DNA of 48,769 bases. Origin: Lishizhenia tianjinensis. Lineage in GTDB: Bacteria; Bacteroidota; Bacteroidia; Flavobacteriales_D; Crocinitomicaceae. Numbering within the stretch: the first letter of the stretch is position 1; each line of letters opens with the position of its first letter. This document shows, piece by piece, positions 45,694-48,769 of the stretch. The position numbers were made by a program, and so were the translations under genes. The notes beneath the pieces are model-generated. The model saw only the letters and a program-made list of their open reading frames with translations. It did no database searches and had not been told where the DNA came from. The stretch is from positions 1 through 48,769 of the forward strand of contig CAMBBW010000003.1 in assembly GCA_945863425.1 (NCBI GenBank), given 5' to 3'.

Positions 45694-46371
45694 ATGGCAC
45701 TGGAAATTTTGTATGAAGACAACCACGTTATTGTTGTAAATAAAAAATCTTCTGATATCGTTCAAGGCGATAAAACGGGAGACACTACCCTACCCGATGT
45801 CATTAAAAGTTATTTAAAAGAGAAATACAACAAACCGGGAAATGTCTTTTGCGGGGTGGTTCATCGCTTGGATAGACCCACAAGCGGCGCCGTAATTTTC
45901 GCTAGAACCAGTAAAGCACTCGAAAGATTAAATAAGCAATTCAGAGAAAAGGAAACAGATAAGATTTATTGGGCAATAGTGGATAAAAAACCTGAGGCCA
46001 CTTCTGGTAAACTAATTCATTTTTTGCGGAAGAACGAAAATCAAAATAAATCCTACGTTACCAATGAAACCAGCGCTGGATCAAAACAAGCAATTTTGAA
46101 TTATGCATTTCTTCGTTCATCAGATAAATTTCATTTACTGGAAATACAATTAGAAACAGGGAGACATCATCAAATTCGTGTGCAACTTTCTACGATCAAT
46201 TGCCATATCAAAGGAGATTTAAAATATGGAGCAAAACGATCCAATGAAGACGGTTCAATTTGTTTGCATGCCCGAAAAATTAGTTTCAACCATCCTACCT
46301 CTAAGGAATTAATTGAAGTAACTGCTCCTGTGCCACATGATGCCCTTTGGCAGTTTTTTGAGGGAAAATAA
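45694..46371 (+). CDS. RluA-family pseudouridine synthase
   Basis: A 225-aa RNA-modifying enzyme. The catalytic motif is VVHRLDRPTSGAVIFA (HRLD, catalytic Asp), with the RluA motif LETGRHHQIRVQLS near 155-168. It has no S4 domain. The target uridine cannot be specified. ATG 45694 is chosen; the upstream in-frame TTG (45664) lies inside parC. It starts 8 nt after parC and ends against the hairpin at 46371. Confidence 0.93.
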   Translation: MALEILYEDNHVIVVNKKSSDIVQGDKTGDTTLPDVIKSYLKEKYNKPGNVFCGVVHRLDRPTSGAVIFARTSKALERLNKQFREKETDKIYWAIVDKKPEATSGKLIHFLRKNENQNKSYVTNETSAGSKQAILNYAFLRSSDKFHLLEIQLETGRHHQIRVQLSTINCHIKGDLKYGAKRSNEDGSICLHARKISFNHPTSKELIEVTAPVPHDALWQFFEGK

Positions 46372-46402
46372 AAGTCCCGTTACTCGTTTGTAACAGGACT
46401 TT
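46371..46402 (-). terminator. hairpin terminator after array gene A1, convergent with rluA-like gene
   Basis: A 12-bp stem with one C/A mismatch (AAAGTCC-C-GTTAC / GTAAC-A-GGACTTT) and a 6-nt loop. On the minus strand a TTTTATTTT tract follows, so it terminates A1. The plus-strand side carries only CGTTT, so it may be a weaker terminator for the pseudouridine synthase gene. The same hairpin recurs at 47511 and 48658. Confidence 0.85.
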
Positions 46403-46455
46403 CGTTTGGATAACTAACTAAACTAAACCTTAAAAATTGTTTTACCTATAATTTA

Positions 46456-46794
46456 TTACTTATTTACTACTAATGTTTCAATGGCTATAACGGTTTCACC
46501 AGCCATGAATGAAATCTCATACGTTCCATTTATCAATCCATTCAAATGAAGAGATGTTGCATCCATTACCGGAATTGATGGCATCACCTGTCCGTTTGTT
46601 GAATTGATTTGAATTGCTGTAATTGCATAATCAGACCAAGACAAAGTGGCGAAACCTGGTTTCATTTCATTTACTACAACCGATACTTTTTTAGGATCTT
46701 TCGGATCTTCGTTGTGAGCGAAAGTAAAAGAAGCAGAAGCTAACATCATTACTACTAATGCGAATTTTGCTGTGGATTGGGCGATTGATTTCAT
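46456..46794 (-). CDS. array protein A1: small secreted protein with sorting-tail-like domain
   Basis: A 112-aa protein. Signal peptide about 1-26 (cleavage likely after TFA), then HNEDPKDPKK and one beta-sandwich domain (about 36-112). The region IQINSTNGQVM...LHLNGLINGTYEISF...LVVNK resembles a type IX secretion C-terminal sorting domain (GQ turn, LxGLxxGxY, terminal Lys) or a DUF3244 protein, but there is no cargo domain. It has no cysteine in the mature part, so it is not a lipoprotein. It is nearly identical to A2 (108 of 112 residues). Function unknown. Confidence 0.8.
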   Translation of the reverse strand: MKSIAQSTAKFALVVMMLASASFTFAHNEDPKDPKKVSVVVNEMKPGFATLSWSDYAITAIQINSTNGQVMPSIPVMDATSLHLNGLINGTYEISFMAGETVIAIETLVVNK

Positions 46795-46824
46795 AATTTA
46801 TTTTTTTCGTGTTGTTTTCTGAGA

Positions 46825-46854
46825 CAAAGATTGTTCAGTTGCAACGAATTACAA
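46825..46854 (-). promoter_or_regulatory. promoter of A1
   Basis: On the minus strand, TTG (46854-46852), 19-nt spacer, AATCTTTG (46832-46825). This matches the Bacteroidota TTTG/TAnnTTTG pattern at 7 of 8 positions in the -7 element. Predicted leader about 24 nt. Confidence 0.6.
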
Positions 46855-46887
46855 TAAAAATATAGAATGAGCTTAGTAAAATACTGA

Positions 46888-46942
46888 TACGTACGGAGCA
46901 TGCACTACGTAGTTCCCGTATTGACCTACGTAGTTGTACGTA
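46888..46942 (-). promoter_or_regulatory. cluster of four TACGTA palindromic boxes upstream of A1
   Basis: TACGTA occurs at 46888-46893, 46906-46911, 46927-46932 and 46937-46942. Two of these are within the identical decamer CTACGTAGTT (46905-46914 and 46926-46935), spaced exactly 21 bp, two helical turns. The cluster lies 34-88 nt upstream of the -33 element, a typical position for an activator. It may be the operator of a dimeric regulator. Confidence 0.6.
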
Positions 46943-47043
46943 GAAAAGTCAGATTTGTACCAATAAATCAAAAGAAATGCTAAATGGAATGTCGAAATGA
47001 AAATAGAGAGCTGGCGTGACTAGTTTATTCGTCTGATTAAAAC

Positions 47044-47076
47044 AAAAAAATCTGACCACAATTATGCAATCAGATT
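47044..47076 (-). terminator. hairpin terminator after array gene B1
   Basis: Stem AATCTGA/TCAGATT (7 bp) with a 14-nt loop. On the minus strand it is followed by TTTTTGTT. It lies 31 nt beyond the B1 stop. The same stem recurs after B2. Confidence 0.7.
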
Positions 47077-47106
47077 CAAAAGTAAAAACCAGTTGGTTAA
47101 ATTCCT

Positions 47107-47436
47107 TTATTTTATAATCGTTAAATTTTCAGTTGCCACTATTTTATCACCAATTAAAAATAATATTTCATAGCTGCCTTCAATCAACCCATTTAAATGT
47201 AGTGTTGTCGCATCCATTACTGGTATAGAGGGCATTTCTTGTCCGTTGGTTGAATTAATCTGAATAGCTGTTATTTCGTTATCCACCCAAGATAAAGTGG
47301 CATAACCTGGCTTTAAATTGTCTACAACCACAGTTACTCGTTTAGGATCTTTTGGATCTTCATTATGTGCAAAAGATACAGCTGCAAAAGAAGAAAATAG
47401 TGCTATAAAAGCAATTTTAATAAAAGTTTGGCTCAT
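47107..47436 (-). CDS. array protein B1: small secreted protein with sorting-tail-like domain
   Basis: A 109-aa paralogue of A1 with a different signal peptide (MSQTFIKIAFIALFSSFAAVSFA) but the same HNEDPKDPK segment and domain layout. The C-terminal part differs from the A type (TLHLNGLIEGSYEILF, ending TIIK). About 85 of 109 residues match B2. Its upstream region is short (74 nt to the next hairpin) and lacks TACGTA boxes, so it is regulated differently from A or by read-through. Confidence 0.8.
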   Translation of the reverse strand: MSQTFIKIAFIALFSSFAAVSFAHNEDPKDPKRVTVVVDNLKPGYATLSWVDNEITAIQINSTNGQEMPSIPVMDATTLHLNGLIEGSYEILFLIGDKIVATENLTIIK

Positions 47437-47510
47437 AATTAGTTAGTTAGTTATCCAAAATTCAATTGGGTTTACCTTACTTACCTTAAAAAGGTTTCAT
47501 TTAAAGCAAA

Positions 47511-47542
47511 AAAGTCCCGTTACTCGTTTGTAACAGGACTTT
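47511..47542 (-). terminator. hairpin terminator after array gene A2
   Basis: Same stem-loop as at 46371. On the minus strand it is followed by TTTTTTGCTTT, a better T tract. It separates A2 from B1. Confidence 0.85.
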
Positions 47543-47595
47543 CGTTTTGATAACTAACTAAACTAAACCTTAAAAATTGTTTTACCTATAATTTA

Positions 47596-47934
47596 TTATT
47601 TATTTACTACTAATGTTTCGATGGCTACAACAGTCTCACCTGCCATGAATGAAATCTCATACGTTCCATTAACCAATCCATTCAAATGAAGCGATGTAGC
47701 ATCCATTACCGGAATTGATGGCATCACTTGTCCGTTCGTTGAATTGATTTGAATCGTCGTGATTGCATAGTCAGACCAAGATAAAGTGGCGAAACCTGGT
47801 TTCATTTCATTTACCACAACCGATACTTTTTTCGGATCTTTCGGATCTTCGTTGTGAGCAAAAGTGAAAGAAGCCGAAGCTAACATCATCACTACTAAAG
47901 CGAATTTTACTGTGGACTGGGCGATTGATTTCAT
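47596..47934 (-). CDS. array protein A2: small secreted protein with sorting-tail-like domain
   Basis: A 112-aa protein differing from A1 at only four residues (A9V, A60T, and two I-to-V changes, LINGT to LVNGT and TVIAI to TVVAI). Signal peptide, HNEDPKDPKK segment and sorting-tail-like domain are the same. Such conservative changes suggest recent duplication or homogenisation with selection to keep the protein. Confidence 0.8.
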   Translation of the reverse strand: MKSIAQSTVKFALVVMMLASASFTFAHNEDPKDPKKVSVVVNEMKPGFATLSWSDYAITTIQINSTNGQVMPSIPVMDATSLHLNGLVNGTYEISFMAGETVVAIETLVVNK

Positions 47935-47965
47935 AATTTATTTTTTTTCGTGTTGTTTTCTGAGA

Positions 47966-47995
47966 CAAAGATTGTTCAGTTGCAACGAATTACAA
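47966..47995 (-). promoter_or_regulatory. promoter of A2
   Basis: TTG (47995-47993), 19-nt spacer, AATCTTTG (47973-47966) on the minus strand, identical to the A1 promoter. Confidence 0.6.
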
Positions 47996-48028
47996 TAAAA
48001 ATATAGAATGAGCTGAGTAAAATACTGA

Positions 48029-48083
48029 TACGTACGGAGCATGCACTACGTAGTTCCCGTATTGACCTAAGTAGTTGTACGTA
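48029..48083 (-). promoter_or_regulatory. TACGTA box cluster upstream of A2
   Basis: TACGTA at 48029-48034, 48047-48052 and 48078-48083. The third box of the A1 set is changed to TAAGTA (48068-48073). Spacing is otherwise the same as upstream of A1. Confidence 0.6.
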
Positions 48084-48187
48084 GAAAAGTCAGATTTGCA
48101 CTAATAAATCAAAAGAAATGCTAAATGGAATTTAGAAATTAATTTAGATATCTTGAGTGACTAATGACATTGTCGTCATGTTAAAGC

Positions 48188-48221
48188 AAAAAAAATCTGA
48201 CTGCACCATTATAATCAGATT
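48188..48221 (-). terminator. hairpin terminator after array gene B2
   Basis: Stem AATCTGA (48194-48200) / TCAGATT (48215-48221) with a 14-nt loop. On the minus strand it is followed by T7 then TGC. Same stem as after B1. Confidence 0.7.
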
Positions 48222-48253
48222 AATAAGTAAAAACCCCCTTCGGTTGAAGTACT

Positions 48254-48583
48254 TTATTTATTCACTATGAGATTTTCAATTGCAATCACTTTATCCCCAA
48301 TTAAAAATGAAATTTCATACGTTCCATTTATCAATCCATTTAAATGAAGAGATGTAGTATCCATCACCGGAATTGATGGAATAACCTGTACGTTGCTTGA
48401 ATTAATCTGAATAGCTGTTATTTCGGTATCCACCCAAGATAAAGTGGCATAACCTGGCTTTAAATTGTCTACAACCACAGTTACTCGTTTAGGATCTTTT
48501 GGATCTTCATTATGTGCAAAAGATACCGACGAAAAAGAAAACAGCATTGCTATGCAAGCAATTTTAATAAAATTATGACTCAT
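48254..48583 (-). CDS. array protein B2: small secreted protein, A/B mosaic
   Basis: A 109-aa paralogue with a B-type signal peptide and middle (RVTVVVDNLKPGYATLSWVD) but an A-like C-terminal part (SLHLNGLINGTYEISF, AIENLIVNK). The A-like stretch corresponds to about 48308-48394, where the DNA also follows A1 rather than B1, suggesting gene conversion. The turn motif is altered to SSNVQVIP, losing the G of NGQ. Confidence 0.8.
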   Translation of the reverse strand: MSHNFIKIACIAMLFSFSSVSFAHNEDPKDPKRVTVVVDNLKPGYATLSWVDTEITAIQINSSNVQVIPSIPVMDTTSLHLNGLINGTYEISFLIGDKVIAIENLIVNK

Positions 48584-48657
48584 AATTAGTTAGTCATCCA
48601 AAATTCAATTGCGTTTACTAAACTAACTTCAAGAATTTTTAATTTACCCAAAAATTA

Positions 48658-48689
48658 AAAGTCCCGTTACTCTTTTGTAACAGGACTTC
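48658..48689 (-). terminator. hairpin terminator after array gene A3 (partial)
   Basis: The same GTCC-C-GTTAC / GTAAC-A-GGAC stem with loop TCTTTT instead of TCGTTT. On the minus strand it is followed by TTTTAATTTTT. It marks the start of a third A cassette. Confidence 0.8.
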
Positions 48690-48741
48690 TACTTGGATAA
48701 CTAACTAAACTAAACCTTAAAATTGTTTTACTTATAATTTA

Positions 48742-48769
48742 TTACTTATTTACTACTAATGTTTCTATG
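48742..48769 (-). CDS. array protein A3, C-terminal end only (cut by window edge)
   Basis: The last eight codons and stop read IETLVVNK, identical to A1 and A2, with the same flanking sequence. The gene continues beyond the right edge of the window, so the array has at least five members. Confidence 0.75.

Follow-up and report, generated by a model that had tools for sequence, protein, structure and literature searches.

The surface by which type A sorting domains of the type IX secretion system (T9SS) face the translocon is described in a section of PMC10994853 as poorly conserved, except for a near-invariant C-terminal Lys that contacts PorV, and a passage of PMC11285876 reports that RgpB needs the beta3-beta4 motif and that its C-terminal residues matter. 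Proteins carrying such a C-terminal domain (CTD) also appear in a passage of PMC7712824, where PorA of Porphyromonas gingivalis is a CTD protein affecting T9SS regulation and Fjoh_0547 of Flavobacterium johnsoniae is secreted even when sprA or porV is mutated. Here, a stretch of 48,769 nucleotides (nt) from Lishizhenia tianjinensis (GenBank assembly GCA_945863425.1, contig CAMBBW010000003.1, positions 1 to 48,769; hereafter the window) was analyzed, which is the whole of one contig (C3) of a 2.56 Mb genome in 239 contigs. At its end lies an array of small genes, each encoding a signal peptide, a short linker and a free-standing sorting-domain-like domain. We consider it moderately probable that this array represents an amplified and derived branch within a family of free-standing T9SS type A sorting domains at the level of the genus, a family that came from subtilase-SprB cargo by loss of the passenger, and that its product is now an abundant envelope or surface protein likely to bind the shuttle, the sortase or cargo.

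The array lies on the minus strand and has the alternating order A-B-A-B-A. Genes A1 (46456..46794) and A2 (47596..47934) each encode 112 amino acids (aa), while B1 (47107..47436) and B2 (48254..48583) each encode 109 aa; of A3 (48742..48769), the window holds the final eight codons and the stop codon (48742-48744), with the remainder past the contig end. A1 consists of a signal peptide, the linker HNEDPKDPKK and the free-standing domain, an architecture repeated in B1 (61% identity to A1); A2 is 96% identical to A1, and B2 is 78% identical to B1. DNA identity is 91-92% among the A genes and 84% between B1 and B2. A preliminary description, made from the sequence alone, had seen here a tandem array of at least five small genes in a row. 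The array is real, but it is an alternating A/B unit, not five equal copies, with four whole minus-strand open reading frames and, as the fifth, a stump at the contig end.

Several other features given in that description were borne out. A hydrophobic, signal-peptide-like N-terminus without a lipobox was found by a simple scan in all four window proteins, a terminal Lys is present in all four, and merely a short linker stands between signal peptide and domain, so that the passenger which precedes the sorting domain in T9SS cargo is missing. The proposed NGQ turn occurs in three of the four proteins, B2 having NVQ. The segment HNEDPKDPK, said to be invariant, is so in all five full copies of this genome (the four window genes and one on contig C113) but varies outside the array, where other family members carry different short, often acidic linkers.

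On the evidence of sequence profiles, the window domain is homologous to T9SS type A sorting domains. The NCBIfam model of these domains, TIGR04183, was found in two of the four window proteins, both below the cut-off, with the best score in A2 (E 0.0091; 16.0 bits, cut-off 23). Among 24 family members, the window's included, TIGR04183 was found in 18 (E up to 1; best 1.5e-9) and PF18962 in 11; 6 of 15 relatives scanned singly passed the TIGR04183 cut-off, and the member L036 lay above both curated cut-offs. When the family was aligned by hhalign with 32 cargo sorting domains of its own genome, a probability of 97.3 and an E value of 2.7e-11 were obtained over 74 columns. A hidden Markov model (HMM) of 39 cargo sorting domains of this genome was also run against the family sample of 54 distinct sequences, which are mutually related, so that counts among them are not independent. 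With this HMM, 53 of the 54 scored higher than any of the shuffles reported (5260 of 5400, the best at 11.2 bits); reversed sequences reached up to 11.3 bits. Conversely, a profile of the family was run over 199 genomes of the order, with at most 23 candidates scored per genome. Among the matches listed, free-standing members scored 125-158 bits, all in this genus, and the next matches reached at most 44 bits, in open frames of 261-1526 aa; more distant members within the genus scored down to 51 bits. The L, G and Y of the L..G.Y core are each present in all nine array genes and in all 45 other free-standing members (solos), and the Gly of the beta3-beta4 motif is present in 8 of 9 and 31 of 45, respectively. 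A segment MPxxP, in a region that is variable among cargo domains, marks the family (49 of 54 members vs 2 of 39 cargo domains), and its most conserved stretch, from MPxxP to GxY, lies inside the domain.

The alternative offered in the preliminary description, that the domain belongs to DUF3244 (PF11589), was rejected: none of the four window proteins matched it, and among the 24 members one did so at E 0.035, with none over the gathering score. A Pfam scan of the four window proteins gave no match. The Pfam FN3 model was listed neither for the 24 members (E up to 1) nor for the four window proteins (E up to 10, a scan in which HMMER filters drop most matches above E 0.1). A PDB sequence search with the family profile returned two weak matches, which are uninformative.

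The origin of the family can be read from the cargo of the same genus. A tree was built from the 39 cargo domains of this genome, five subtilase-type cargo domains of relatives, the domain of a 264-aa protein of this genome (C100) and 18 of the 54 free-standing sequences. These 18 formed one clade (98/97), enclosed in a larger clade (95/97) with seven subtilase/SprB sorting domains, that of C45 from this genome included, and one other cargo domain, C110. The sister of the free-standing sequences was the domain of C100 (83/82). According to Pfam, three proteins of 706-714 aa that were scanned (L221, L235 and L223) have the order Peptidase_S8, SprB, Por_Secre_tail; C100 has SprB and Por_Secre_tail without S8; and in C45, Peptidase_S8 was found in the first part of the protein. 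L222 and L224, which are subtilase-type rows of the tree, and L239 were named by the similarity of their starts, without a Pfam scan. Thus, one genome holds a subtilase (C45), an SprB-only protein (C100) and bare sorting domains. An intermediate state is seen in L068, which has YPNL where cargo has YPNP, ends in TKKL and lies over the TIGR04183 cut-off. Stepwise loss of the passenger is the best origin of the free-standing proteins, and it is supported by sequence, tree and promoter.

The promoter evidence is a TACGTA box that recurs upstream of the genes. Four such boxes lie 148, 138, 117 and 99 nt before A1 (46888..46942, minus strand), and boxes lie 149, 118 and 100 nt before A2 (48029..48083, minus strand), where a fourth is degenerate. 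The upstream regions of the 54 solos, array genes included, were counted over 200 nt from the called start codon, a few being shortened by contig ends. At least one box was found in 34 of them (shuffle mean 4.6, maximum 11), at least two in 23 (mean 0.2, maximum 2), and 69 boxes in total (mean 4.8, maximum 11); two boxes exactly 10 nt apart occurred in 15 (shuffle mean 0.003). Across 81 genomes of the genus, the two-box pattern was found at 43 sites in 29 of them (7 in one genome), vs 9 for the reversed control; judged by position, 16 of these sites precede solo genes and 4 precede subtilase-type genes. All three architectures, subtilase-SprB, SprB-only and solo, have boxes upstream, and the spacing agrees in examples, being 150/140/118 nt before the subtilase gene L235 and 148/138/117 nt before A1. 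Within this genome, C45 and C100, both preceded by boxes, are the two best cargo scores against the family profile, and the third-best, C110, has no box; if boxes were randomly dealt, the odds of both top-scoring cargo genes having them would be about 3 in 496. The three B genes and most of a second subfamily are without boxes.

The array differs from the other members of the family at one conserved position. The aligned C-terminal basic column holds Glu in 9 of 9 array genes, K or R in 45 of 45 non-array solos, and K or R in 32 of the 39 cargo domains of this genome; when the neighbouring column was allowed, the cargo count rose to 35 of 39 and that of the array was still 0 of 9. This column is presumed to be that of the conserved Lys of PMC10994853, from its position in the last strand. 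Since no side chain proved indispensable in earlier work with 16 point mutations spread over the CTD of RgpB, as recounted in a passage of PMC11285876, the weight of the Glu change is not to be overstated. The array forms one clade (100/99), so the change may be a single event, not nine.

Within the array, the A proteins have been held nearly constant. In ten A-gene pairs from three genomes, the proteins are 95-99% identical at a synonymous divergence (dS) of 0.16-0.51, with a ratio of nonsynonymous to synonymous divergence (dN/dS) of 0.02-0.08; for the A paralogues of this genome, the values are 0.35-0.46 and 0.04-0.06. These dS values led us to reject recent gene conversion or duplication as the source of the A-A protein identity. 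The amplification with intact reading frames noted in the preliminary description is thereby upheld, its frames being kept by purifying selection and not by youth. The dS between two genomes is 0.16 for A1, and between A1 and A2 within each genome it is 0.39, so the A1/A2 duplication is probably older than the split of these genomes, identity having been kept by selection. The A gene of contig C113 and its positional counterpart in the relative G029 (same neighbour) differ by a dS of 0.51, which suggests that in places copies have been swapped or have disappeared. A2 shows lower dS values, 0.23 to that G029 gene and 0.20 to a gene of L055 that likewise has this neighbour, and older exchange between copies is possible. 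B1 and B2 are diverging faster (dN/dS 0.30).

Based on these results, the following course is proposed. The starting point would be a secreted protein combining a subtilase, SprB repeats and, at the C-terminus, a sorting domain, from which the catalytic part and then the repeats were lost, leaving a promoter, a signal peptide, a linker of about 10 residues and the sorting domain. The free-standing proteins would reach the periplasm by Sec. Single-copy members, which keep the basic residue, probably remain clients of the T9SS and are exported by it as bare domains, and the array members with Glu probably no longer use the T9SS route in the ordinary way. The array proteins would be abundant in the envelope or on the surface, would be produced together with the related subtilase and SprB proteins, and would most likely bind the shuttle, the sortase or the cargo bound by their parent. 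Because the A copies are several, encode almost the same protein and have a conserved control region in common, dosage would be the selected property. What is said here of the export and function of the array proteins is deduced from their sequences, and a role in trans in the sorting of co-regulated cargo is the weakest step of the proposal.

Several observations weigh against this proposal. No window protein exceeded the curated TIGR04183 cut-off (best 16.0 bits vs 23), and, alone among the 54 members, the G029 B gene with its 9.5 bits fell below the best shuffle of the cargo HMM (11.2). The PNP motif of the first strand, found in 39 of 39 cargo domains (middle N, S or I allowed), is present in 0 of 54 members. 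An AlphaFold model of an array protein, with a mean predicted local distance difference test score (pLDDT) of 79, has FN3 and other immunoglobulin (Ig)-like domains as its predicted nearest solved structures. A T9SS sorting domain is not among the matches listed, an absence that is no proof. When a cargo sorting domain of this genome was modelled by the same procedure as a control (mean pLDDT 93.8), T9SS sorting domains were indeed retrieved, as were two DUF3244 structures, at ranks 7 and 38. Given that the control succeeds, the array fold has either drifted or been wrongly modelled. The preliminary description had taken a match to an unrelated Ig or FN3 fold as a reason to drop the sorting-domain identity; the outcome is mixed, the model being FN3-like, yet the sequence profiles tie the domain to sorting domains. 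In our view, the profiles are more specific here than the fold match, and we rejected a plain FN3 domain, which is alike in fold without a sequence match.

As to descent and control, the placement of C100 as sister is modestly supported in a tree of only 82 columns, and C110, a cargo protein of another kind with a long branch and no upstream box, falls inside the same clade. No box was found before 20 of the 54 solos, whose counts, as said, come from related sequences. Of 32 upstream regions of cargo genes in this genome, a box stands in only 3, those of C45 and C100 among them, which led us to discard the idea of a general T9SS-cargo promoter. Boxes also precede genes not obviously related to secretion, so it seems likely that the box regulon is wider than secretion. 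No member at E up to 1e-12 was found in 45 of the 81 genomes (some incomplete), though all 81 have T9SS sorting domains; the family is therefore accessory. Finally, the bonds of the conserved Lys are said in a section of PMC10994853 to vary, and its main role may lie elsewhere.

One rival explanation is that all members, those of the array too, are minimal T9SS cargo, exported by SprA/PorV and cut by the sortase; the real product would then be the short peptide of the linker, in A proteins HNEDPKDPKK, placed on the surface or released. It would account for a signal peptide and a sorting domain separated by a short linker alone, for the invariance of HNEDPKDPK in an array whose A1 and B1 differ at 39% of positions, and for the retention of the C-terminal basic residue by all 45 members outside the array. 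We regard it as quite unlikely, as the linker is not conserved outside the array, the conservation peak lies in the domain (MPxxP to GxY) instead of the linker, all 54 members have lost PNP, and all nine array genes have Glu at the basic column. Another explanation is that the domain was domesticated away from secretion and is now a stable beta-sandwich, a periplasmic or surface binder with its own ligand, for which kinship with sorting domains is history only. The family-specific MPxxP, the FN3-like model, the patchy occurrence and the loss of the basic residue in the array agree with this account, which we regard as possible but doubtful; against it, the boxes common to subtilase and SprB cargo suggest a continuing link, and the basic residue is retained by all 45 non-array members. 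It is highly improbable that the genes are remnants of cargo in decay, left from the ends of secreted-protein genes that broke and then multiplied by chance. Short frames matching a sorting domain with no signal peptide seen do occur, but a signal-peptide-like start is present in all 54 members, dN/dS between A genes is 0.02-0.08 and the control regions with their TACGTA boxes are conserved, which contradicts decay.

Two further explanations assign the array a part in regulating export. Free sorting domains might act as decoys that fill sites on the shuttle or the translocon and so tune the export of co-regulated proteins, in line with the boxes shared with subtilase-SprB cargo, with a conserved protein at raised copy number and with the precedent of a CTD protein acting on T9SS regulation (PorA, in a passage of PMC7712824). 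We consider this unlikely: the array copies are without the residue reported to contact PorV, and the idea fails if Glu abolishes binding. Competition for the sorting machinery, suggested in the preliminary description, is likewise hypothetical, and the array has Glu at the column taken for the PorV-contacting residue. It is likewise rather improbable, though conceivable, that the free domains, with the operator kept from the protease, form a dosage-controlled regulator in trans, which binds the shuttle, the sortase or sister cargo and sets the surface amount of co-regulated secreted proteins, the basic-to-Glu change having turned a client into a non-exported modulator. Our preferred account is still that of an amplified, derived branch of free-standing sorting domains serving as an abundant envelope or surface protein.

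Throughout the genus, free-standing members were found in 36 of 81 genomes, the 55 matches at E up to 1e-12 lying in open frames that span 88-184 aa. All 54 distinct sequences have a hydrophobic, signal-peptide-like start and no lipobox, judged from a simple scan of hydropathy. Their neighbours vary; for example, solos lie between GAPDH-like and phosphoglycerate kinase-like genes or beside a peroxiredoxin-like gene (named by eye). Two deep subfamilies are separated (100/99), on few columns and with long branches meeting, and the second has a short C-terminal tail (e.g. ...NNMVIAKN) and is mostly box-less (L053 3933-4328; L041, L039, L175, L180 and L181). The gene L057 groups with Crocinitomicaceae members, and the title of its record, Chryseobacterium gleum (a metagenome-assembled genome), is probably wrong. 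The short frames L100, L169 and L170 match TIGR04183 with no signal peptide seen and are perhaps ends of broken or mis-started cargo genes. The window's own genome has a T9SS, with SprA at 2338 bits and three loci over the cut-off for the PorV family. A link between presence of the family and of the T9SS itself was considered and dropped for want of contrast, sorting domains being present in all 81 genomes.

The extent of the array was followed across contigs. Over its terminal 119 nt (48651-48769), C3 matches C113 without a difference (L052 2491-2609), the shared sequence there being the 3' end of an A gene with its terminator region; C113 has this A gene whole, and it is perhaps the same gene as A3. 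On the 3' side of this shared stretch, C3 enters B2 and C113 enters an AsmA-like gene (named by eye), so the overlap reflects either two A copies or an assembly mixing strains; the end of C3 inside sequence identical to C113 could be an assembly break at a repeat or, again, a strain mixture. The AsmA-like gene adjoins an A gene in both L052 (1-2114) and L055 (5592-8780). The record of L055, a close relative, bears the title Lishizhenia tianjinensis; there, beyond the AsmA-like gene, another A-type control region begins just before the contig stops (8925-8952), and the array therefore probably continues on the far side of the AsmA-like gene. We tentatively read the locus as six A/B genes with the AsmA-like gene inside the array. 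In G029, the order A-B-A lies between the same kinds of neighbours with a Fib_succ_major family gene (PF09603, E 7.3e-43; L051 7487-8122) inserted between A1 and B.

The individual promoters and terminators ascribed to these genes were found in part. Next to the start codon, a block almost invariant before six aligned A genes of three genomes (46795..46840 for A1 and 47935..47981 for A2, minus strand) is probably the core promoter and leader; for the B genes, no promoter was identified. Terminator-like hairpins on the minus strand follow A1 (46370..46403), B1 (47048..47077), A2 (47510..47543) and A3 (48656..48691), four being found where 1.3 were expected, and none was called after B2. Matches to the sigma-70 pattern were at chance (8 vs 11.0), and promoters of this pattern are unexpected in Bacteroidota. 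In the leaders of the A genes, the Rfam model 6A RNA gave a match at E 0.1 that stayed under the gathering score, and this candidate was discarded. Paired boxes 10 nt apart were seen before a divergent DinB-like/heme-NO-binding-like pair, a 346-aa regulator-like gene and several genes of the genome G244 (named by eye; L228, L233, L237, L238, L229 and L231). A literature search on the TACGTA box motif led nowhere, its match concerning inositol lipids.

The literature searched gave no description of free-standing sorting domains as a family or in an array, nor did a term search of the review PMC10202324, and a search on DUF3244 listed no paper containing the term. The statement that no system of this form has been described is nevertheless too strong, as Fjoh_0547 in PMC7712824 is, like the solos, a small CTD-containing protein of 112 aa. 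The comparison is by description, and the passage on it tells nothing of arrays or a family. PorA differs in having 246 aa and a FimH-like domain ahead of its CTD. DUF3244 proteins (BT_1867, 4g5a; BT_3571, 3sd2) are short chains of 99 and 86 residues with a fold resembling the cargo sorting domain, but differ from the array family in lacking a sequence match over the cut-off. By profile, the same family as the array is that of the T9SS type A sorting domains (TIGR04183/PF18962), especially those of the S8 subtilase-SprB cargo of the genus. The L..G.Y core, the beta3-beta4 Gly for the most part, the basic residue outside the array and the TACGTA boxes before subtilase/SprB genes are shared with them; the solos differ in having no passenger, no PNP motif (0/54 vs 39/39) and the MPxxP segment, and the array in its Glu at the basic column. 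Such a family, with its shared boxes and one branch in which the basic residue has changed, provides natural variants that probe roles of the sorting domain beyond export, and bear on whether it signals, titrates or anchors in trans and on the purpose of the conserved Lys, left open in the section of PMC10994853. Sorting domains are known as the addresses of cargo, and here is a family of addresses without cargo, whose origin can be read in one cargo lineage.

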